From positions 1 through 26,099 of the IMG/VR virus record IMGVR_UViG_3300015367_000021: a DNA stretch of 26,099 nucleotides; one strand, written 5' to 3'. Within the stretch, counting starts at the first letter, position 1. Each line of letters begins with the position of its first letter. Source of the DNA: a virus. Positions 933 through 10,712 of the stretch are shown one piece after another. The translations under genes and the position numbers were made by a program. A model generated the notes under the pieces. The model worked only from the letters and a program-made list of their open reading frames with translations. It did no database searches and was not told the DNA's origin.

Positions 933-3335
933 TTAGCATTTGATTTCCATGCAGAAGAATGATCCATAGCTTGAACGGATATTAAGAGCCCCACCACTGT
1001 CTTGTGTTGCTGTAACATAAAAACTTGTAGGGTTACTCATAGAAGCCAAATCAATCATACAAGTAAGTGTAGAATTATAATCAGAAGCAAAGTCTGCTGT
1101 AGTTGCCCCAGGTATTAAATTACCACCGTAAGTATTACCGTTATTATCTTTAATCTTAATTTGCCTATAACCTGTAGCGTTAGGATCCCAGTTAATAGAC
1201 GCTGTTAGTTGTACACGTTTAATGCCTACATTGTAAGGCACAGTTATTAAAGTTGGGCTAGAACTAGACCAAAAGCTACCATCATTATAAATAGATCTAT
1301 TCCATGAAACAGTAGTTTCTGAATTATTAGGAATAGATAATCCTGTTCCTCCAGAGTTTTGTTGCGTTACGTTTACACCTTTTGCAACCCAGTAATCAGT
1401 GGAATTACTGCTGCCGTAATCCATGTATGGAGTTGTTGTGTCATGGAATACATTGGCTTTAGTAACAATATTATTTGTACCAGCACCTAAATAAACACAT
1501 TGATTTAAGGAGTATTGAAAAGTGTTACCTGTTATACTTCCTCTTTGAGCATAAGGTAAATGAATGCCATCGTATAAAGTATTTGCAACATTACCTACGA
1601 ATGTAAAATCACTTAGCCAACCAGCTGTAGTAGATGAACCGCTTTGAGTTACCAAACTCATTGTGCTGGTTGCTGCTGCTGGAGGACTCCAAGCCATCTC
1701 GTTATTGTTAATTAAAACATTAAGTAAATAATCTGATGCAGTATTATTTACTAACAATATTGCGCTAGTTAACACATACTCCATGTGGTTATACATTATC
1801 CAGTAATCTGATAATGAACCTTGCGATGTACTATCTACAGTTATGTTTATGCAATAGTTGTTGTTATAAAAATAGTTATCAACAACAGTCATACCGTCGC
1901 TACCTAAAAATATAGCAGTATGTCCATTAGTGTTAATGGTACATTCTTTAATCATTCCAGCAGAGACGTCAGGCCAGCTAGGATTTTGTACACTAATACC
2001 AACATTCGCTGTACCTATGGTACAATTAGATATTGTCGAATCGTATATATTTAAGTTTAAACCAATAGCCATTGTGCCACTAGTTTGAACATTAAATATA
2101 ACTGAATTACTATTAAACGCTGCTTTATATCCTCCACTAGGGTAACTTAAATCAAGACCGTTTCCAGATGTTGATGTATTGGTAGTTAATTGCAGATGTT
2201 CTACAATGCACTGATAAGGAGTCTGTATAGTTAATACGTTATGTGTAGTATCGTATTGTTTAATTATAGAAAGATTAACGCCGTCACCACGCACATGACA
2301 TGGTACGGTTATAATTGTTAACGATGGTGTAGTACTAGATCCTATCACGTACGTACCTTTAGGAAAATATAGCTCTCCACCACCAGCGGCATTAAGTGCT
2401 GCTATGGCTAAATTGATATTAGTTGTATCATCAGTTGAACCATTGCCTGTAGCACCAAACGATTGTACGTTAAAATGTTCTGTGTACCAAGCTGTGCTAG
2501 AAGCATTCTTTAAAATTACTTGGCTTGTTGATCCACCAGATGGAACGCCTGCGCCTGTAGCTCCAGTGGCTCCTGTGGCTCCAGTAGGTCCTGTAAGGTT
2601 TTCTATTGGTCCTGTCCAACTGCCACTTGCTTTTAAATAAACATCTCCAGTGGTTGTGCGTAAATAGTAATCACCGTTGACTCCTGTGCCAGATGAGGGA
2701 GTTGCTGTACCGCTATACCAAGTTGCACCATTGGTTCCATTTGTACCGTTAGTTCCGTTTGTGCCATTAGTACCATTAGTACCTGGAGTTCCCGTAGCAC
2801 CTTTAATGTTTGTTATTACAATCCATGTGCTACTAACCTTCTGGTAAACATCTTCTGTTGTTGTATAAAGATAATAGTCTCCATTAACGCCTAAACCAGA
2901 ACTGGGAGTTGTACTGCCAGAATACCATGTAGCCCCATTCGTTCCGTTGGTTCCAGAACTTCCTGTAGCACCTGTAGCTCCTGTAGGACCAATTAACGAT
3001 GTAGGACTACCCCAAGGTGTGCCACTACTGTTCTTAGGTCCGTAAATAGTTTCGTTGGTTGTGTTGATGTAGAAGTCGCCAACATTACCTGTCCCGCTTG
3101 CTGGAGCTGTTGTACCGTTTAAAACAGTATTTGTAGATGAACCACCAGAAGCATTGATGGTTACATTTCCCGTACCGCCAGAAGGACTAATAGTTATATT
3201 AGTACCAGCTAATATTTGGGTTACTCCTGTGGTTGTAGTTCCAGTTACAGGAGTAGACGTAGCATTAGATAAAGCTCCACCAGCAACAACGTCTTGCTTG
3301 TTGTACGCTAAAACAAAGTTGGAAGTAGAAGCCAT
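933..3335 (-). CDS. Tailspike: collagen-like linkers plus pectate-lyase-type beta-helix
   Basis: This 800-aa protein is probably the main host-surface spike. Residues 1-70 form a short head with the motif ILAGTNITISPSGGTG (41-56). Residues 70-262 hold three repeats with a GDFY or GDYY core, separated by Gly-X-Y runs (about 116-134, 179-203 and 249-262), which suggests a trimeric collagen-like stalk. Residues 288-330 (FNVQSFGATGNGSTDDT, then a GGGELYFPKGTYVI-like stretch) match the start of the pectate-lyase-3 superfamily beta-helix used by many phage depolymerase spikes. The Asn/Ser/Thr-rich repeats that follow fit beta-helix rungs up to about residue 640. The C-terminal 150 residues look like a separate beta-sandwich tip. 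The start is 3 bases after the adaptor gene's stop, with no strong SD. Enzymatic activity and glycan target cannot be read from the sequence. Confidence 0.87.
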   Translation of the reverse strand: MASTSNFVLAYNKQDVVAGGALSNATSTPVTGTTTTGVTQILAGTNITISPSGGTGNVTINASGGSSTNTVLNGTTAPASGTGNVGDFYINTTNETIYGPKNSSGTPWGSPTSLIGPTGATGATGSSGTNGTNGATWYSGSTTPSSGLGVNGDYYLYTTTEDVYQKVSSTWIVITNIKGATGTPGTNGTNGTNGTNGTNGTNGATWYSGTATPSSGTGVNGDYYLRTTTGDVYLKASGSWTGPIENLTGPTGATGATGATGAGVPSGGSTSQVILKNASSTAWYTEHFNVQSFGATGNGSTDDTTNINLAIAALNAAGGGELYFPKGTYVIGSSTTPSLTIITVPCHVRGDGVNLSIIKQYDTTHNVLTIQTPYQCIVEHLQLTTNTSTSGNGLDLSYPSGGYKAAFNSNSVIFNVQTSGTMAIGLNLNIYDSTISNCTIGTANVGISVQNPSWPDVSAGMIKECTINTNGHTAIFLGSDGMTVVDNYFYNNNYCINITVDSTSQGSLSDYWIMYNHMEYVLTSAILLVNNTASDYLLNVLINNNEMAWSPPAAATSTMSLVTQSGSSTTAGWLSDFTFVGNVANTLYDGIHLPYAQRGSITGNTFQYSLNQCVYLGAGTNNIVTKANVFHDTTTPYMDYGSSNSTDYWVAKGVNVTQQNSGGTGLSIPNNSETTVSWNRSIYNDGSFWSSSSPTLITVPYNVGIKRVQLTASINWDPNATGYRQIKIKDNNGNTYGGNLIPGATTADFASDYNSTLTCMIDLASMSNPTSFYVTATQDSGGALNIRSSYGSFFCMEIKC
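2550..3128 (-). repeat. Collagen-like Gly-X-Y runs alternating with a 45-residue GDYY module
   Basis: Inside the tailspike, a module of about 45 residues occurs three times (about residues 70-115, 135-178 and 204-248), with the shared pattern PSSG.GVNGDYYL.TTT.DVY.K..G.W. Each copy is followed by Gly-X-Y triplets: GPTGATGATG, a run of GTN triplets, and again GPTGATG. At DNA level the triplet runs are 9-base codon repeats (Gly-Thr-Asn or Gly-Ala-Thr). Such tracts form triple-helical stalks in phage spikes and change length easily by replication slippage. Confidence 0.85.
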
Positions 3336-3339
3336 AGGC

Positions 3340-4032
3340 TTATCCCACTCTCACCCATATCAAGTTCTGACCAACACCGTGATAAAGCGGAATGACAAAC
3401 GCACCAGCTATGTTTACGGAAGGATCAGTAGTACCGTTGTTTTGTCTTAGCTTCCACCATTGTAGCCCATCTCCACCACCCGTGTATGTGATACTGGTAG
3501 CTACTATGATAGGAAGGGATGCTGTAGTAATGTTAGTTACATTAATACTATTTAAAGAAGTGGTTGTTCCCGTAGTTGCAGGCGTACCTGTTTCAGCGGT
3601 AATCCAAGGAATACATAAAGCCTGTGGTACTCCGCTGTTGTTAGGGAATGGGTAATATTGGCCTGCTGTTAGTTGCTGGGTGATGGTTGTTAGCTTATCA
3701 TCATCCTGTTCAATCATTAGCGGGGTTAGAATGCCCGTAGAACTGAAAGTAGTGGTCTGGGTAAGGGGTACGTTGCGTTGGATGGTTACAAGGTCGCCTA
3801 CGGTACAAGGAAACGATCCTGTGGTTAATAGCGTTATGCTACCCGTAAGCATCTGGTTGATGCTATTATAGCCGCCACCAGTAACTGTGTAGTCACTATT
3901 GTATACCAAGATGTTAGCACCATCTGTTACCAACAAGTCAGTAGGAAGGTTAAAAGGGAACGTCACCGTTAGCGTCTGGGTGGTAGACGATATGGTATAT
4001 TGTACCTTGCTGGTTGTGGTTGTAATGCTCAT
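3340..4032 (-). CDS. Tail-fibre/spike adaptor (T7 gp17 N-terminal-domain-like)
   Basis: The 230-aa protein resembles the particle-binding N-terminal domain of podovirus fibres such as T7 gp17. It starts with a TxxxxYTISSTTQTLTVTFPF-like strand, then a DGANILVYNSDYTVTGGG segment, then GDLVTIQRNVPLTQTTTF (about residues 80-97) and an acidic EQDDDKLTTITQQL helix (about 108-121). In T7 this domain is fused to the shaft and receptor-binding part. Here it is a separate gene directly upstream of the tailspike, so it probably links spike to tail hub. The last 70 residues (TYTGGGDGLQWWKLR and onward) look like a small beta-rich docking domain. The start is 2 bases after the ATP-grasp gene's stop. Confidence 0.75.
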   Translation of the reverse strand: MSITTTTSKVQYTISSTTQTLTVTFPFNLPTDLLVTDGANILVYNSDYTVTGGGYNSINQMLTGSITLLTTGSFPCTVGDLVTIQRNVPLTQTTTFSSTGILTPLMIEQDDDKLTTITQQLTAGQYYPFPNNSGVPQALCIPWITAETGTPATTGTTTSLNSINVTNITTASLPIIVATSITYTGGGDGLQWWKLRQNNGTTDPSVNIAGAFVIPLYHGVGQNLIWVRVG

Positions 4033-4034
4033 CG

Positions 4035-5333
4035 TTAGTCTGGTTTAGATTGTTTTTCTTCTTTGTCCATCTTGAAGGGCGAGATACCAATCTCCTCCAA
4101 CTCCTCGATAGCTTTGTTCACGGTGTCAATAGGACCCATGTTAAATTTGATGTTGTATCCCTTGATGGATTCTCCCGCTTCCCTAGCGTGCTCTACAGCT
4201 TCTTCTAGTGTATCACCCCAGCCTACGACAGCCCCTATCTCTATCATGTCTTCATGCTGGGTTACTACAAAGCGTTTACCATCAATGACTACGCAATTAT
4301 ATAGCTTTATCTGGTTAGCATACTTCTCTGGATAGTCTACAGCTTGCCAGTTGTCTTTAGCCCATTGAGACTTAATTAACACCTCTACGCCCCATCTGCC
4401 CGCAGGCTTAGGCTCTACAAGAATACCTTCAGACCCGTACCAGACTATCTCAGAAAGGTTGGTGAACAGCTCTTGCCATAGTTCTGATGGCGGGGATGGA
4501 GCCCTAATCGTGGCATCCACCATGTAAGGCTTTAGGTCTTTACCTATTCTAACCTCATTAGATACGGAAGCTCTACAGCCATATTGGGCAAACAAAGGGG
4601 CAAACATCTCGTTCCAACGGCGCAGGGGTTCTGGAATGTCGTCCCATTGCACCATCTGTCCTACGTACCCCATGTCCTTAGCCTCTATGCCAAACAGGGT
4701 GTTGGTAGGATACATGCCGTCTATGCAATAGGTGTCTATACCCACCTCAACGCGGTCTGGTAAATCGTCCTCACAAATGAATTCAAGCTGCTCTTTAAAG
4801 CCTCCTATGTCGTTAGCTATAGCATGTACCTTAGGTTCTACCACGTCCCATTCAGGGCTGTAGAAGGTTTCTGTTACGCCACGCCATTTATCAATCTTAA
4901 CATGCTGCTTAGGATTGGCACGTAGGTGGGCTTCTAAGGCCGTTACGCCCTTTACTACCTTCCATGGCTGTACAGGTAGCCCCATCTCTTCCATCTTCTC
5001 TTTACAGAGCTCTCTGTACTGTTCTAGTTCCTCGGCATTCCTTGGCCCCCAGACACGCTTGCCTAGCTTCTCTAGGTGTATCTGTAAGGCTGCTGTACCT
5101 AAGTCTGGGAATATAAAGATGTCCACCTCGTCAAAGTGCGGGCCAAAGACGTCATCCACCAACTCTACGTTCTTAAGCCCTGTGCCTATTAGGCCAGAGT
5201 TCATCGTAGGAAAGGATCCAGCGTAAGGGATGTGCAGGTAGACCTTCTTAAAGTCCCGCCCAAACCTTTCGGCTAAGGAACAGAATAAAGGGTTGCAACA
5301 TACTAAGGCTATCTTGTCGTTTACTTCACTCAT
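4035..5333 (-). CDS. PurD-like ATP-grasp ligase
   Basis: The 432-aa product follows the layout of phosphoribosylamine-glycine ligase (GARS/PurD). Residues 1-95 are an N-domain-like fold. The ATP-grasp entry is seen as RVWGPRNAEELEQYRELCKE (93-112), where GARS has VFGP then a Lys-rich helix, followed by HVKIDKWRG (144-152) with a candidate ATP-binding Lys. A central acidic region is at 186-215. The C-terminal segment GWGDTLEEAVEHAREAGESI (371-390) closely resembles the GARS C-domain. By eye, the metal-binding E.N.R site appears as D273-A-T-I-R277, so the usual Glu and Asn are changed. True purine synthesis is uncertain, and the tail-gene location suggests another carboxylate-amine ligation. 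I chose ATG 5333, not the earlier TTG at 5375, because GAGG lies 6 bases upstream and the ATG overlaps the stop of the 43-aa gene (ATGAGTGA). Confidence 0.8.
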   Translation of the reverse strand: MSEVNDKIALVCCNPLFCSLAERFGRDFKKVYLHIPYAGSFPTMNSGLIGTGLKNVELVDDVFGPHFDEVDIFIFPDLGTAALQIHLEKLGKRVWGPRNAEELEQYRELCKEKMEEMGLPVQPWKVVKGVTALEAHLRANPKQHVKIDKWRGVTETFYSPEWDVVEPKVHAIANDIGGFKEQLEFICEDDLPDRVEVGIDTYCIDGMYPTNTLFGIEAKDMGYVGQMVQWDDIPEPLRRWNEMFAPLFAQYGCRASVSNEVRIGKDLKPYMVDATIRAPSPPSELWQELFTNLSEIVWYGSEGILVEPKPAGRWGVEVLIKSQWAKDNWQAVDYPEKYANQIKLYNCVVIDGKRFVVTQHEDMIEIGAVVGWGDTLEEAVEHAREAGESIKGYNIKFNMGPIDTVNKAIEELEEIGISPFKMDKEEKQSKPD

Positions 5334-5457
5334 CGTCATCCTCGTAGTCTGGGTCACCTGAGCTATCATCGTCAATGTTAGGTATTAAACATCCAGAGCG
5401 TCCTGTCTCGGCAGGATCCATGTTGTATTCTACCTCGTCTGGAAATGGTGAACTCAT
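5326..5457 (-). CDS. 43-aa acidic mini-protein of unknown function
   Basis: This short gene starts with an ATG that overlaps the stop of the large ejection-protein gene (ATGA) and ends inside the start of the ATP-grasp gene (ATGAGTGA). It is therefore likely coupled to both by translation. The product begins MSSPFPDEVEYNMDPAETGR and ends SSGDPDYEDDDE. Overall 15 of 43 residues are Asp or Glu, there is one Cys (C23), one basic residue and no hydrophobic segment. I recognise no family. Its placement makes it a plausible partner or substrate of the ATP-grasp enzyme, but that is inference. It could also be a spacer ORF kept only by the overlapping starts. No obvious SD lies upstream, where the sequence is the AT-rich end of the preceding gene. 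Confidence 0.6.
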   Translation of the reverse strand: MSSPFPDEVEYNMDPAETGRSGCLIPNIDDDSSGDPDYEDDDE

Positions 5458-8400
5458 TTTAAAGACGTGTTAACATTACGCAACTTAGCTCTTTCTATTA
5501 AAGAAATAGCTTTCACATAATCATTCATTTTAATTTGCATTGCTTTATCGTAATCAACTTTTTCTTTAGGCGATAATGATTTAACAAACTGTGCTTCATC
5601 AACACGGCTACCAATAAAGTTCTTTAAATAAGAACGCTTCACAGCTTGTTCTATCTTTGCGTATTTAACCTCGTTGTTAGCTCCACGTTCTTTTGCAACT
5701 AAAGATCTTATTTCAGATATAGCCCTAGAATCATCTTTTTCACTTATATACTTTTTAAGATTACCAAACTCCGAAGGACCAAACTGTTCTTCAGTTTTAG
5801 CTATTCCTAATTGTTCTTTAAACAATTCTGCTTTTTGAAATGTACGTGTAATAGGAGTATCGGCTGGACCTTTCTTTACACCAGTTACTGCGCTCGCAAT
5901 ATCTTCACCAGCTTTTAAAACACCAGACCCAACCTTACTCGCTAAGCTAGCAGCCGTTGGTTCTTCCATAAATCCTTTTCCTGCTGAAGAAGCCAATGGA
6001 TTAACGCCTGTGAAACCATATAACAAATTACCAAAGCTAGTACCAGGTCTGCCAGTTTCTGGAGCTCGTCCGTTAAGTAACGAATAAGTAGTATGGCCTG
6101 TTAAGGCTAGTGATGCAACGTCAGCAGGCACTCCCGTGAATGGACGTATAATCTCACCAGCCATATCACGAGCAATGTGTGTAGTGGTTGTACTAAACGA
6201 ATCACCTTTCCTCATGCCGTCTATCATTGCCTCCACGCCTGTTGCTCGCATTCCTGTACGCATACCTGTCCATTGTAACGGATCTATGTATATAGGTTTA
6301 CTTTGTTTATCTACACCTATTTTAATAGCACCAGCAGGAACTCCATTAGGGAACGCATCTTTCCAAAGCATCAAGTTTAAAAGTAAAGGAGCAGACACAT
6401 ACCAAAAAGCAGCATTTGCCACTTTGCTCGCTACCATCCTTCTTCTGCCAGCATCACTGAGTCCTTTCATGCGAGGAGAAAGAAGCAGCATTTGATCTAT
6501 ACCATTCTGTAATTTATTAATACCAGCAGTAACAAACGGAGATATACCCGTCTGCTTTACCATTCTTTGTAAATTGCTTTGTAAACGTTCATTGTAGTTA
6601 CCAGATTTCTTTAACCACTCAAGACGATTGGCAGGTGTGTCTTCAAGAATCATCCCTTGTTTAAGGGCATCTTCGTACATATCGTTTATCACAAGCCTGC
6701 CAGCTAAATCTAAAGTGTTTATTAATTTACCTGTTTTAGACGTTTCCCATTTATTAGGATTTAATCTATTGAGTTGTTCATCAACAAATGGATTTCCTCT
6801 TATACCAAAGGACTTACTCACTTGATAAATAGAATCATAAAGCTCTGGATCTTTATCCATCAACTGTCTTGTTTTGTTATAAATCTTAGAGATAGCTAAA
6901 GGTATACTTACAAAAGGATTCTTTGTAGCAAGATCACTTAATAAACCCCTACCTTGAACAGTTTGAGCTACATTTCTTATTAAGTTAGCTGTATGATAAA
7001 CACCTTCAACGCCGCTAACTAAAGTAGCTTTATTTATCTTTGCAGCTAATGCACTCAATCCAGAAATCTGTAATTTAGGATCTAGATTAAGTACTTTTCT
7101 TAATTCTGGATATACACTATCCTTAACCCAAAGCGTTTCTCCCTTTGGATACCCTTGCACTGGTAGAGCTGTATATCCCTCACCTGGACTTGTTTTGCTA
7201 ATAACACCAGCACCATTCTTTATAACAGCGTCATACAGCTTGTTTCTAGTATATGATTCATAGTTACCAGACAACATTCTCTGAGTAAGAGTTTTGTAAT
7301 CAGTTAAGTATTCTTTTCCAGTACCAGTTCTTTCTTTGCTAAAGACGCTGCCACGTTTCATTGAGCCAGTGACATTACCAGCTTTACTTCCGCCAGATAA
7401 CAACACCTTGTCTGTATCTTCGCCAAAGACAGCTTTCATGTTTAAGTATATGCCAGTTTTTAAACCAGATATACCTAGCTTGCCACCAGTAGACGTGTGC
7501 ATTTCTTCTGCTGGTTTTTGAACAGATTCTTTGTGTTTAGCCACAGCTAATAAGATCTCTGGATCTTTGGATTCTCTTTCGTAGTCTTCATCAGACATGA
7601 AAGTGGTAACCTTAGAAGCATCTTCTACTAAACCTTTTTGTTCACGCTTGAGATTCCTTTTCTCTTCTGCGTCTGTAGCATTAGTAATCTTCTCGTCAAG
7701 TTTAGAAGCCTCATCAAGGTAATGCTGTTTTAAACCACGTTGCATATCCTCTACACCAAAAGTCCCAAGACGTTCGTTAAATTCAGCATCATTATACTTT
7801 TCTCCTAACACAGCGTAATGTGCAGCAAGAGGTAGTATTTGCCTAGACGTTGGAGAGTTAGCGTGATCTACAGCAGCATCTGTGATTTCCGATGATATTG
7901 CACTCATTTTAGGAAGTGCTGCATTTGAAGTTTCGTGTCTAAATTCTGCTACATCACTTACGTTTTCGCTAAGAGTATTCCATAACCCTGTAAATCTATT
8001 TACTTCTGGAGATTGTTTTGCCTGTGCGGTAGCAGCTTGCAGCATTTGCTTTCCTTCTGACGCAGCATAACCCTGTGCTAACTTTTCAATTTCATCTGCA
8101 TAAGGAGCAGCAGCTTCACCAAACATTTCTAGAATCTTTGCGGAAGCATCTGCGGCTTTAATAGCGCCAGAGTGTATTAGATCTGCTGTAACAATAGCTG
8201 CGTCTTCAATACTTTCTTTATCAAATCCACCAGCAAAGCCACGGGTCTTTATATTCTTAGCAAGACGTTCTTGTGCCTTATTAGCACGCTCAGACAAAGT
8301 CATGGGGCGAGCAGCTTCTTTAGGCATAGAACTTTGTTCTACAGCATTTCCAATTTGCTTGGTTATGTTCTCTTGATCTTTGACTTTAATTTTCTCCTCA

Positions 8401-10712
8401 ATGTGTTTAGCCATTTCTGGAGTGCTCGTGTTGGCTATAGGAACACCACTGCTTGTTTGTACTGAATAACTATCTTCTCCAGTCTTAACTGTTTTAATTC
8501 CATCGGGTTGTCCTAATGGCTCAGCAATCATGTGACTATGCAATAAGTCTTCACCAGCCCATGGTCCGTTTAATAAACCATATTTGCGAGCGTGCTTCAT
8601 TGCATCTTCTCTATTATAAAACGTACCCTCCTCATCTTCAAAGCCTTCTCTTATGCGATAGCCTTTGCCTTGAAAAATAATCCTTTGTCTTTCCGAAAAA
8701 TCAGTAGGTACAACGCCAATCTCTTTTGCTGGTGTAGCAGGAGTTTTTCCTGATCCTTCCACTTGCACAGGTTTCCCCCCATCTGATGGCGCTATAGTAA
8801 AATTACCTTCATTATCACGATAAAGAATTCCTTCCCATTCTAAGTATTTAACTTTTTCACCAACTAAATCACCTATATGAAAATCCATTGATGAATAAGC
8901 ATCGTCGTGCGTTGCTCCACGAAATGACCTACCATCGCCAATGCGAACGATTGCATTCTTTAAAGGAGCTACTGGTTGAGTTCTTTGGTTTAATTCATGT
9001 ACGGCAGTTTTCTGTCCTTCATCAAATTTCTTTTCTTCTTGGAATGCTTGTTGGAATATTTGTTGTTTAGCTTCCGTGTTAGGAGCTTCTCTTATTTCTA
9101 CTATCTTTTCATTGGGTATACCAACAGCCTTCATGCTGAGTTCGTCAGCCATTAAAGTCTTAGCATACGCAGAATGAAACTTACCCATTCCCAAACCAAG
9201 GATCATATATGCGCCTAGACCCATTGCTGTATTGGGTCCCGCTTCTACTAAAGGTTTTGTAAACTCTTCCTGCCAGTTAGGAGCCTTTAGATTAGTCCTT
9301 AGTTCTTCGGGTAAGGCATGATCTATCATTGCCATTACTTGCTGTGAAAAAGGTTTAGCAACTAACTGTCCTGCTGTAATGCCGCCAAACTCAGCTCCAC
9401 GAATAACTGTTTCTTTAGCTAAGGCTTTAGCTATTTGCGATGTTCCAATTTTACTTAGGTTAGCAAATGAACTTTCAGCAGATGGTGCTAAATTTCTAAA
9501 TAACTTACCAATGTAGTACTGAGAACCAGTTTGTATTAAAGAGGATGTTGCAGCTATGCCAACAGATTCTGCACCCGTAATACCCTGGTCTTTCAGTTCA
9601 GTCTTAATATTACCATAGTTACTTACTGCTAATACTCCAAGACCCGCACCAGTGTAAGATGCTATAATGACTGGTAATTGATTAGTTGTTGAAAGCATAA
9701 ACTTGCTTACAACATTACCGCCTTCTATTGGATCTATAGTACCATTTACTAATTGGTCTAAACGTCTTTGTACATCAAATTTCTTTTGGGATTGTTCTGG
9801 TAAAGCATCAGAAAAAGAACCCATTAAACCAGTGGCAAATTGACCTATACCACGATTAAGTTCCTCTCCAGCAGCTAAACCAAATGGACGTTCTTTAAGG
9901 GTTGTTTTGCCTGCTTTTTGAGAAGCTAATGCTGTAGCTATCTCTCTATCTTCGGGACTCAAATCAATCAATGCTTGTACAGCTTGATCTTTGTAAGATT
10001 CTAAATCTGATCTTTCTTGTATTGGTAAACCACCAAGTGTTTCTCCAGCGACGCTAGCTCCCTTGCTATTCTTAGCTCTTACTGCTTCAAGATATTTACT
10101 TAAAGTGTCTACTGAACTTGTAAGCGAGTGCCCTCGATTATCAATATAGTTTATAGCAGAATCTGCCGTAGCTTGAAGGAAATCATCATGCTTAGGATCG
10201 TACCCAGGCATGGTCTTATATTTCTCTCTGTTTTTTTGATAAGCCTGTCTTGATCCTTCTTTATTACCAGTAAGGTATCCTGTGTATATGTCGTTATATA
10301 TGCCAGCTACTAAATTTGAATGATCTTCGTACTTTTGAGAAAACTTACCCATTGCATCAAAGAACTTGTCACCTTCAACATCATCACCAAAACCCATAGC
10401 TTTAGCATACGAGCTTTGATAATAAGAAAGGTGTTGTGCTACATCCTCGCTATCTTTGTTTAATGCCGCACTAAGGTAGGATGTAGACAAAGTATCCTTT
10501 TCTGTGCCAGGTGTTAAAGTAGGAGCCTTCTTTGATAGTTTAGCCAATCCTTCTTGGCCTTTAAAATAAGGTAAAAAAGAAGTGCTATTAACACTTTCAT
10601 CTTTTTTAGAAAGTGTCGTATCACTAAAGTTCGGTGTATGCCAAAGATAAGATTCAGCAGTTTCTGGTGCTTGATTCTGTTCTTCGGTAGGACTTTGTAA
10701 TTGGTTGTCCAT
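5454..10712 (-). CDS. Large internal virion / DNA-ejection protein (T7 gp16-like)
   Basis: At 1752 aa this is the largest protein in the window. It sits last in the row gp13-like, gp14-like, gp15-like, giant protein, the same order as T7 genes 13-16. Such proteins travel in the capsid and form the trans-envelope ejection channel. The N-terminal 300 residues are helical and charged. Hydrophobic stretches lie at about 346-367 (LPVIIASYTGAGLGVLAV) and 494-511 (MGLGAYMILGLGMG). Residues 585-720 hold two small beta-like segments. The C-terminal third has a hydrophobic stretch near 1428-1450 (WYVSAPLLLNLMLW), typical of this class. I see no lytic transglycosylase catalytic region at the N-terminus, unlike T7 gp16. 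The start overlaps the previous stop (TAATG). The assignment rests mainly on size, order and composition. Confidence 0.75.
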   Translation of the reverse strand: MDNQLQSPTEEQNQAPETAESYLWHTPNFSDTTLSKKDESVNSTSFLPYFKGQEGLAKLSKKAPTLTPGTEKDTLSTSYLSAALNKDSEDVAQHLSYYQSSYAKAMGFGDDVEGDKFFDAMGKFSQKYEDHSNLVAGIYNDIYTGYLTGNKEGSRQAYQKNREKYKTMPGYDPKHDDFLQATADSAINYIDNRGHSLTSSVDTLSKYLEAVRAKNSKGASVAGETLGGLPIQERSDLESYKDQAVQALIDLSPEDREIATALASQKAGKTTLKERPFGLAAGEELNRGIGQFATGLMGSFSDALPEQSQKKFDVQRRLDQLVNGTIDPIEGGNVVSKFMLSTTNQLPVIIASYTGAGLGVLAVSNYGNIKTELKDQGITGAESVGIAATSSLIQTGSQYYIGKLFRNLAPSAESSFANLSKIGTSQIAKALAKETVIRGAEFGGITAGQLVAKPFSQQVMAMIDHALPEELRTNLKAPNWQEEFTKPLVEAGPNTAMGLGAYMILGLGMGKFHSAYAKTLMADELSMKAVGIPNEKIVEIREAPNTEAKQQIFQQAFQEEKKFDEGQKTAVHELNQRTQPVAPLKNAIVRIGDGRSFRGATHDDAYSSMDFHIGDLVGEKVKYLEWEGILYRDNEGNFTIAPSDGGKPVQVEGSGKTPATPAKEIGVVPTDFSERQRIIFQGKGYRIREGFEDEEGTFYNREDAMKHARKYGLLNGPWAGEDLLHSHMIAEPLGQPDGIKTVKTGEDSYSVQTSSGVPIANTSTPEMAKHIEEKIKVKDQENITKQIGNAVEQSSMPKEAARPMTLSERANKAQERLAKNIKTRGFAGGFDKESIEDAAIVTADLIHSGAIKAADASAKILEMFGEAAAPYADEIEKLAQGYAASEGKQMLQAATAQAKQSPEVNRFTGLWNTLSENVSDVAEFRHETSNAALPKMSAISSEITDAAVDHANSPTSRQILPLAAHYAVLGEKYNDAEFNERLGTFGVEDMQRGLKQHYLDEASKLDEKITNATDAEEKRNLKREQKGLVEDASKVTTFMSDEDYERESKDPEILLAVAKHKESVQKPAEEMHTSTGGKLGISGLKTGIYLNMKAVFGEDTDKVLLSGGSKAGNVTGSMKRGSVFSKERTGTGKEYLTDYKTLTQRMLSGNYESYTRNKLYDAVIKNGAGVISKTSPGEGYTALPVQGYPKGETLWVKDSVYPELRKVLNLDPKLQISGLSALAAKINKATLVSGVEGVYHTANLIRNVAQTVQGRGLLSDLATKNPFVSIPLAISKIYNKTRQLMDKDPELYDSIYQVSKSFGIRGNPFVDEQLNRLNPNKWETSKTGKLINTLDLAGRLVINDMYEDALKQGMILEDTPANRLEWLKKSGNYNERLQSNLQRMVKQTGISPFVTAGINKLQNGIDQMLLLSPRMKGLSDAGRRRMVASKVANAAFWYVSAPLLLNLMLWKDAFPNGVPAGAIKIGVDKQSKPIYIDPLQWTGMRTGMRATGVEAMIDGMRKGDSFSTTTTHIARDMAGEIIRPFTGVPADVASLALTGHTTYSLLNGRAPETGRPGTSFGNLLYGFTGVNPLASSAGKGFMEEPTAASLASKVGSGVLKAGEDIASAVTGVKKGPADTPITRTFQKAELFKEQLGIAKTEEQFGPSEFGNLKKYISEKDDSRAISEIRSLVAKERGANNEVKYAKIEQAVKRSYLKNFIGSRVDEAQFVKSLSPKEKVDYDKAMQIKMNDYVKAISLIERAKLRNVNTSLK

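Follow-up and report, generated by a model that had tools for sequence, protein, structure and literature searches.

What would a virus do with a relative of the GAR synthetase PurD that lies among its tail genes, directly behind a reading frame for a 43-residue acidic peptide? We examined this question in a 26,099-base virus record (IMG/VR record IMGVR_UViG_3300015367_000021; the whole of this stretch is called the window below), which, like the records compared with it, is a fragment. A first-pass annotation had described a ligase with the domain layout of GAR synthetase and a tiny Asp/Glu-rich ORF at this place, inside the tail locus and outside any nucleotide cluster, and the ORFs show that everything it described is found there (Table 1). 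The ejection-type gene lies 5' of the ligase gene, and the tail-fibre-like gene, which starts 2 nt past the ligase stop, lies 3' together with the pectate-lyase-like tail spike; the surroundings are virion genes and no purine genes are found nearby. As had been noticed, the acidic ORF ends in the start region of the ligase gene, and it contains a GAGGA Shine-Dalgarno-like run. Among 43 non-redundant loci the ejection-type slot is homologous in 25 and the tail-fibre-like slot in 22. The tail spike of the window carries collagen-like GPTGATGATG repeats ahead of its pectate-lyase-like domain.

Table 1. Coordinates of the features of the ligase locus in the window.
Feature	Coordinates	Strand	Description	Basis
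Predicted PurD-derived ATP-grasp ligase gene	4035..5333	minus	432 aa; ATG at 5333, stop at 4035-4037 included in the range	ORF
Mini-ORF with ETGRSGCLIP core	5326..5457	minus	43 aa, acidic	ORF and homologues
Overlap of mini-ORF end and ligase start	5326..5333	minus	8 nt	sequence
Overlap of ejection-type gene stop and mini-ORF start	5454..5457	minus	4 nt, ATGA	sequence
Codons E260 to R277 of the ligase	4503..4556	minus	hold D273-x-x-x-R277, the altered ATP-grasp metal/substrate motif	alignment
Ejection-type protein, upstream	5454..10712	minus	1752 aa	position and overlap with the mini-ORF start
Tail-fibre-like protein, downstream	3340..4032	minus		PHROG tail families
Tail spike, pectate-lyase-like (PF12708)	933..3335	minus		family match

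Iterative searches of IMG/VR with the ligase recovered 2, then 3, 15 and 59 loci, at identities as low as 30%. Single-sequence family scans of the window ligase gave nothing over cut-off and a direct PDB search with its sequence gave no match; the kinship to PurD emerged only with alignments. A profile of 43 sequences (A5) matched the PurD structure 2yw2 in the PDB with E=1.1e-9, and the NCBIfam model TIGR00877 (purD) matched 11 of 13 family members, with the window protein below threshold. An AlphaFold (AF2) model made with the 43-sequence alignment (pLDDT 92.7, pTM 0.91) has the PurD fold over the N, A, B and C domains. The 13 solved structures with the best Z in VIA are all GAR synthetases (Z 27-31, followed by PurT at ~24), superposed with an rmsd of 3.1-5.4 over 360-384 residues, and GAR synthetases fill the first 14 places in Foldseek (1.9e-20). 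Structure prediction and HMM search both point to PurD, and the GAR synthetase layout first read from the sequence extends over the full length of the 432-aa protein. No RimK-type family matched the ligase in Pfam or NCBIfam, and none is among the fold matches listed. Judged by fold and profile, the ligase is a PurD-type ATP-grasp enzyme descended from GAR synthetase.

The ligase family is absent from Pfam and PHROGs, BFVD holds no close viral relative, and no ligase was found in INPHARED (50,697 named phage records) or among PLSDB plasmids. Two scans of GTDB genomes, made with window-clade peptide patterns only, also found no ligase, and cellular cousins may exist. PADLOC detected no defence family at the locus, and we found no description in the literature of a phage ATP-grasp enzyme with SpeD, PurD or carrier systems.

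Does the enzyme still make GAR? From the alignment, on which, and not on model coordinates, all our statements on the active site rest, the E-x-N-x-R metal ligands of PurD are altered to D-x-x-x-R. The D.T.R that had been read by eye is exact in the window (D273-A-T275-I-R277), and the middle residue is Cys in 42 and Thr in 25 of 72 non-redundant relatives. Two signatures of PurD are lost. The PS00184 motif R[LF]GDPEx[EQIM] reads RAPSPPSEL in the window, and 65 of the 72 relatives have Ser where PurD has the Asp; the GxGGREHA loop, aligned with E. coli PurD, is replaced at residues 13-17 mostly by (D/C)-N-(G/P)-L-F. In PMC3261824, PurD-like proteins are rejected as PurD when the Asp of R[LF]GDPEx[EQIM] is missing and the N-terminal P-loop is divergent. 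Compared with PurD itself (EC 6.3.4.13; PDB 1gso, 2yw2 and 3lp8), the phage ligase shares the full-length fold, the ATP-grasp Lys, the adenine-side Glu and the Arg of the metal/substrate motif. It differs in its identity of 13-17%, in its context, which is not that of purine synthesis, in the loss of the GNGGREHA loop, in the change of EFNCRFGDPE to D-x-(C/T)-x-R-x-x-S-P-P-x-E and in an additional invariant Glu260. An ordinary phage-borne GAR synthetase, carried as a purine auxiliary metabolic gene, would account for the fold and for the sub-threshold matches to TIGR00877. Against this, the window ligase reaches 16.9 bits where the equivalog cut-off is 288, the P-loop and the RxGDPE motif are lost in the whole family, and the neighbourhood lacks purine genes, making this explanation extremely unlikely. 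Because the N-terminal P-loop and the RxGDPE motif are lost, the ligase is, by motif, no functional PurD; the grouping with functional GAR synthetases that the first-pass annotation had allowed for does not apply to an enzyme without their signature motifs.

The loss of these motifs is accompanied by strict conservation elsewhere. K146, R151, D200, E217, K219, E260, D273, R277, P281 and N292 are identical in 72/72 relatives and E188 in 70/72, so that the ATP-binding Lys/Glu and metal-binding carboxylates typical of the ATP-grasp superfamily are present throughout (K146/E260/D273/R277). Between the window ligase and that of locus L001 we counted 51 synonymous and 3 non-synonymous codon changes. 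Such a conserved set and synonymous excess would be expected of an active ATP-grasp ligase with changed substrates. Since the alternative active-site set is invariant in the 72 relatives, the ligase is probably an active enzyme for another substrate.

The mini-peptide has 15 D/E and one K/R among its 43 residues. A search with the peptide only recovered six loci (two already known) with the ligase directly 3' in each, and the motif [ED][TV][GS][RD]xGCL[ILV]P, searched in 2.9 million viral contigs, recovered eight loci, all with the ligase and one of them a new record. By profile the mini-peptide is present in 12 of the 14 records of the window's close clade; outside that clade there is one weak partial profile match only (E = 0.029). 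The search of related phages thus bore out a conserved short acidic ORF adjoining the ligase, and the possibility raised at the outset that the ORF would prove unconserved did not hold. In the ligase tree, which is a quick tree, the mini-peptide occurs in 11 of the 13 rows of one clade, and the remaining two rows (L030 and L040) have a gene of another type, termed HExxE-type, in its place. Across 12 aligned mini-peptides, whose identity to that of the window drops to 29%, the G, C, L and P of a G-C-L-x-P core never vary and the net charge ranges from -10 to -15. The upstream ejection-type proteins vary in length and sequence among these phages, and the start of the mini-peptide is unchanged. 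By these comparisons the mini-ORF is real, beyond chance.

In five loci (L001, L002, L006, L008 and L010) an extra domain of ~75-90 residues, with a weak likeness to phrog_839, lies between the mini-ORF and the ligase and is fused in frame to the ligase (L001:7743-8000, L006:5116-5390, L008:5107-5373); it is missing in the window, L028, L031, L035, L037 and L042.

The overlaps at the two ends of the mini-ORF raise the possibility that it is a translational coupler whose peptide is incidental, the overlap and the SD-like GAGGA within D/E codons setting ligase expression. Overlaps of 4 and 8 nt are what such a coupler would show, and unrelated ORFs of 33-43 aa take the same slot in other loci (L045/L053, L049/L050, L066/L079 and L076), among them a very acidic 43-aa ORF in L045/L053 that is unrelated to the mini-peptide and overlaps the ligase start. 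However, substitutions over codon positions 1:2:3 (six close copies, pooled over all pairs) are distributed 108:62:280, and the invariant G-C-L-x-P lies far from the overlap. This codon-position bias and the invariant core indicate that the peptide, and not the frame alone, is under selection, which pure coupling does not explain, and we regard a mere coupler as improbable.

The first-pass annotation had also pointed to graspetide pathways, in which a small acidic peptide is encoded beside an ATP-grasp enzyme. Here the ligase would form cross-links within the mini-peptide, between Asp/Glu side chains and Ser/Thr/Lys residues, and an acidic peptide with a conserved core and variable flanks adjoining an ATP-grasp ligase fits that picture. 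On the other side, PurD and not a RimK-type peptide ligase is nearest by profile and among the fold matches listed, the 12 aligned mini-peptides show no conserved Ser/Thr/Lys acceptor, and they contain a single G-C-L-x-P core between variable acidic flanks, with no repeated core of Thr/Ser/Lys and Glu/Asp. No protease or exporter gene was seen adjoining the mini-ORF or the ligase. A graspetide-like RiPP is therefore very unlikely. Even as an analogy the comparison is weak: the ligase derives from PurD, a repeated Thr/Glu-type core is absent, and only one clade has the peptide, other clades carrying a SpeD-like or HExxE-type gene in that position. The mini-peptide has no relative in the PDB.

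We then compared what occupies the position before the ligase across the family. At 72 non-redundant loci, the slot overlapping or abutting the ligase start holds the mini-peptide in 11, an HExxE-type gene in 17 and a SpeD-like gene in 40 (nine loci have both of the latter). Kinship among many of these loci means that the counts do not represent independent events, and the search that started from SpeD raises the SpeD share, which is 9/43 among ligase-first loci. Gene order varies between SpeD-HExxE-ligase and HExxE-SpeD-ligase, as does spacing. That the links are kept through these changes speaks for function over inherited position alone, although operon linkage can also persist by position alone. 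Other genes were seen at the ligase start: a SET-domain protein gene (PF00856; L069:5571-5984) directly before and overlapping the ligase gene, and an AP2/HNH homing-endonuclease-like gene (L054:3897-4370) that reaches the ligase start.

The HExxE-type protein is about 115-130 aa long, with the pattern VGDW...HELVE...EPGDxPxAPYxxEH, and gave no convincing match in Pfam, PHROG or PDB. A search starting from this protein found a PurD-like ligase within 3 kb in 66 of the best 80 loci (L144-L223); 41 of these ligases clearly belong to the window family, and about 25 to a second PurD-like family of phages. The second family, which also pairs with the HExxE-type protein, has an EWTPRFGYDAS motif and matches TIGR00877 with E down to 5.5e-21, below the cut-off (examples are L188:1694-2998, L195:1712-2998 and L151:1616-3001). 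In L025:8126-9004 an HNH domain is fused to the HExxE-type protein. Replacement of the mini-peptide by the HExxE-type gene in two clade members indicates that the ligase does not need the mini-peptide in general.

The SpeD-like neighbours bear on the identity of the amine. PF02675 is over cut-off in those of L046, L047, L048, L062 and L083, and a SpeD-first search found 51 loci with the ligase close downstream in 49, one of the exceptions being cut by a contig end. These proteins are 117-137 aa long, and the pyruvoyl/cleavage Ser and the catalytic Cys are present in 61/61. The position taken to align with His68 of Thermotoga SpeD is Asp in 61/61, leaving the Ser/His68/Cys83 set incomplete, and because of this substitution their decarboxylase activity is putative and not certain. 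Near the cleavage site we find Q in 44, T in 54, F in 59 and Y in 60 of the 61 proteins, residues placed by nearness and not by published logo columns; Gln, Thr, Phe and Tyr are the four residues that mark SpeDC enzymes (PMC10407285). Among phage SpeD homologs of 117-122 aa, ornithine decarboxylation has been shown, and another homolog decarboxylates arginine (PMC9992855). The neighbours described here resemble these phage enzymes in size, Ser and Cys, and mostly have Q, T, F and Y around the cleavage Ser, but they have a ligase partner, carry Asp at the His68 position and are not found in the window's clade. Neither PMC9992855 nor PMC10407285 mentions a ligase. In the L045/L053 lineage a pyruvoyl-dependent arginine decarboxylase (PvlArgDC; PF01862, E = 4e-45; L053:7254-7796) overlaps the ligase end. 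Should these decarboxylases prove active, they would supply the ligase with putrescine or agmatine as its amine.

The SpeD-ligase pairs of L094-L143 often lie between the terminase and the portal gene. On the flanks of the pair are small basic proteins (L100:2991-3218, L103:3758-3979, L131:5738-6016 and others) that differ from one another except for a common C-terminal KRGMISEKAAKRHL-like tail, which recalls SHOCT-type ends.

Taken together, the reading that we favour, with modest confidence, is a PurD-derived carboxylate-amine ligase that no longer makes GAR, whose amine is probably putrescine- or agmatine-like and for which the mini-peptide serves as partner or substrate in the window clade. 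As PurD does, the ligase would use ATP to activate a carboxylate as an acyl phosphate and pass it to an amine to form an amide. The decarboxylase partners in relatives suggest that this amine is a small product of amino-acid decarboxylation, putrescine or agmatine, which would come from the host where the phage encodes no decarboxylase. No SpeD or PvlArgDC was found in the window clade records, so for the window the choice of amine is carried over from relatives of about 30-43% identity, and we infer amide chemistry with a polyamine by analogy with them.

How far the mini-peptide belongs to this chemistry has to be weighed against the prospect that the ligase acts on free metabolites only, for instance making a soluble amide from putrescine or agmatine and an amino acid, for DNA packaging or altered host metabolism, with the mini-peptide an independent small phage protein that travels along. 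In favour of this, most family members are paired with a SpeD-like or HExxE-type gene and not with the mini-peptide, the close relatives L030 and L040 do without the peptide, and the substrates that PurD joins are themselves two small molecules. Yet every mini-peptide recovered in our searches came with the ligase, and even where the extra domain is fused to the front of the ligase, the mini-ORF immediately precedes the gene for the fusion protein. We consider the restriction to free metabolites rather unlikely, and hold with moderate confidence that the mini-peptide is a functional partner of the ligase. In the window clade this dedicated partner would most likely be a substrate or carrier whose carboxylates are used, which would explain the strict linkage, the constant acidity and the conserved core; a non-covalent regulator is less likely. 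Taken over all alternatives, a covalent substrate or carrier is nevertheless only a tentative proposal.

Small acidic proteins that act as a carboxylate scaffold for an ATP-grasp ligase provide a working analogy in the LysW/ArgW carriers of LysX/ArgX. Members of that family have zinc-binding CxxC Cys pairs and a conserved C-terminal Glu. The mini-peptide, in contrast, conserves a single Cys, lacks zinc CxxC pairs and does not consistently end in Glu, its C-termini reading DDDE, DDED, DETD, DEAT, DWED, ADDE, SDDE or DEGE, and a LysW-type carrier identity was set aside for the absence of the zinc Cys pairs and the C-terminal Glu motif. Glutathionylspermidine synthetase differs from the phage ligase in ATP-grasp family and in substrates. 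We detected no relation between the two; the likeness lies in the joining of a carboxylate to a polyamine, as proposed here for the ligase, and in being phage-encoded with polyamine genes. Glutathionylspermidine synthetase is present in some phages (PMC9992855).

A more elaborate proposal is a phage post-translational system in which the ligase of PurD descent couples a polyamine or an amino acid to the mini-peptide at its carboxylates, or in which the mini-peptide is a carrier that loads a virion component, while sister phages feed the ligase by their own pyruvoyl decarboxylase. We know of no report of such peptide modification for ATP-grasp enzymes of the PurD line, and in this full form we think the proposal unlikely. 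Peptide modification by the ligase, first raised as speculation on the ORF pair, stays conjectural.

Overall these results point to an undescribed enzyme family in uncultivated phages, encoded in the midst of virion genes and associated with partner genes of three kinds. The SpeD-like proteins found here are almost always accompanied by the ligase, which suggests a next enzyme for phage ornithine and arginine decarboxylases of the sort reported in 2023, with amide formation, and not spermidine synthesis, as the step that follows, and the 43-mer and the 432-aa ligase are a candidate pair for a new peptide modification or carrier chemistry.
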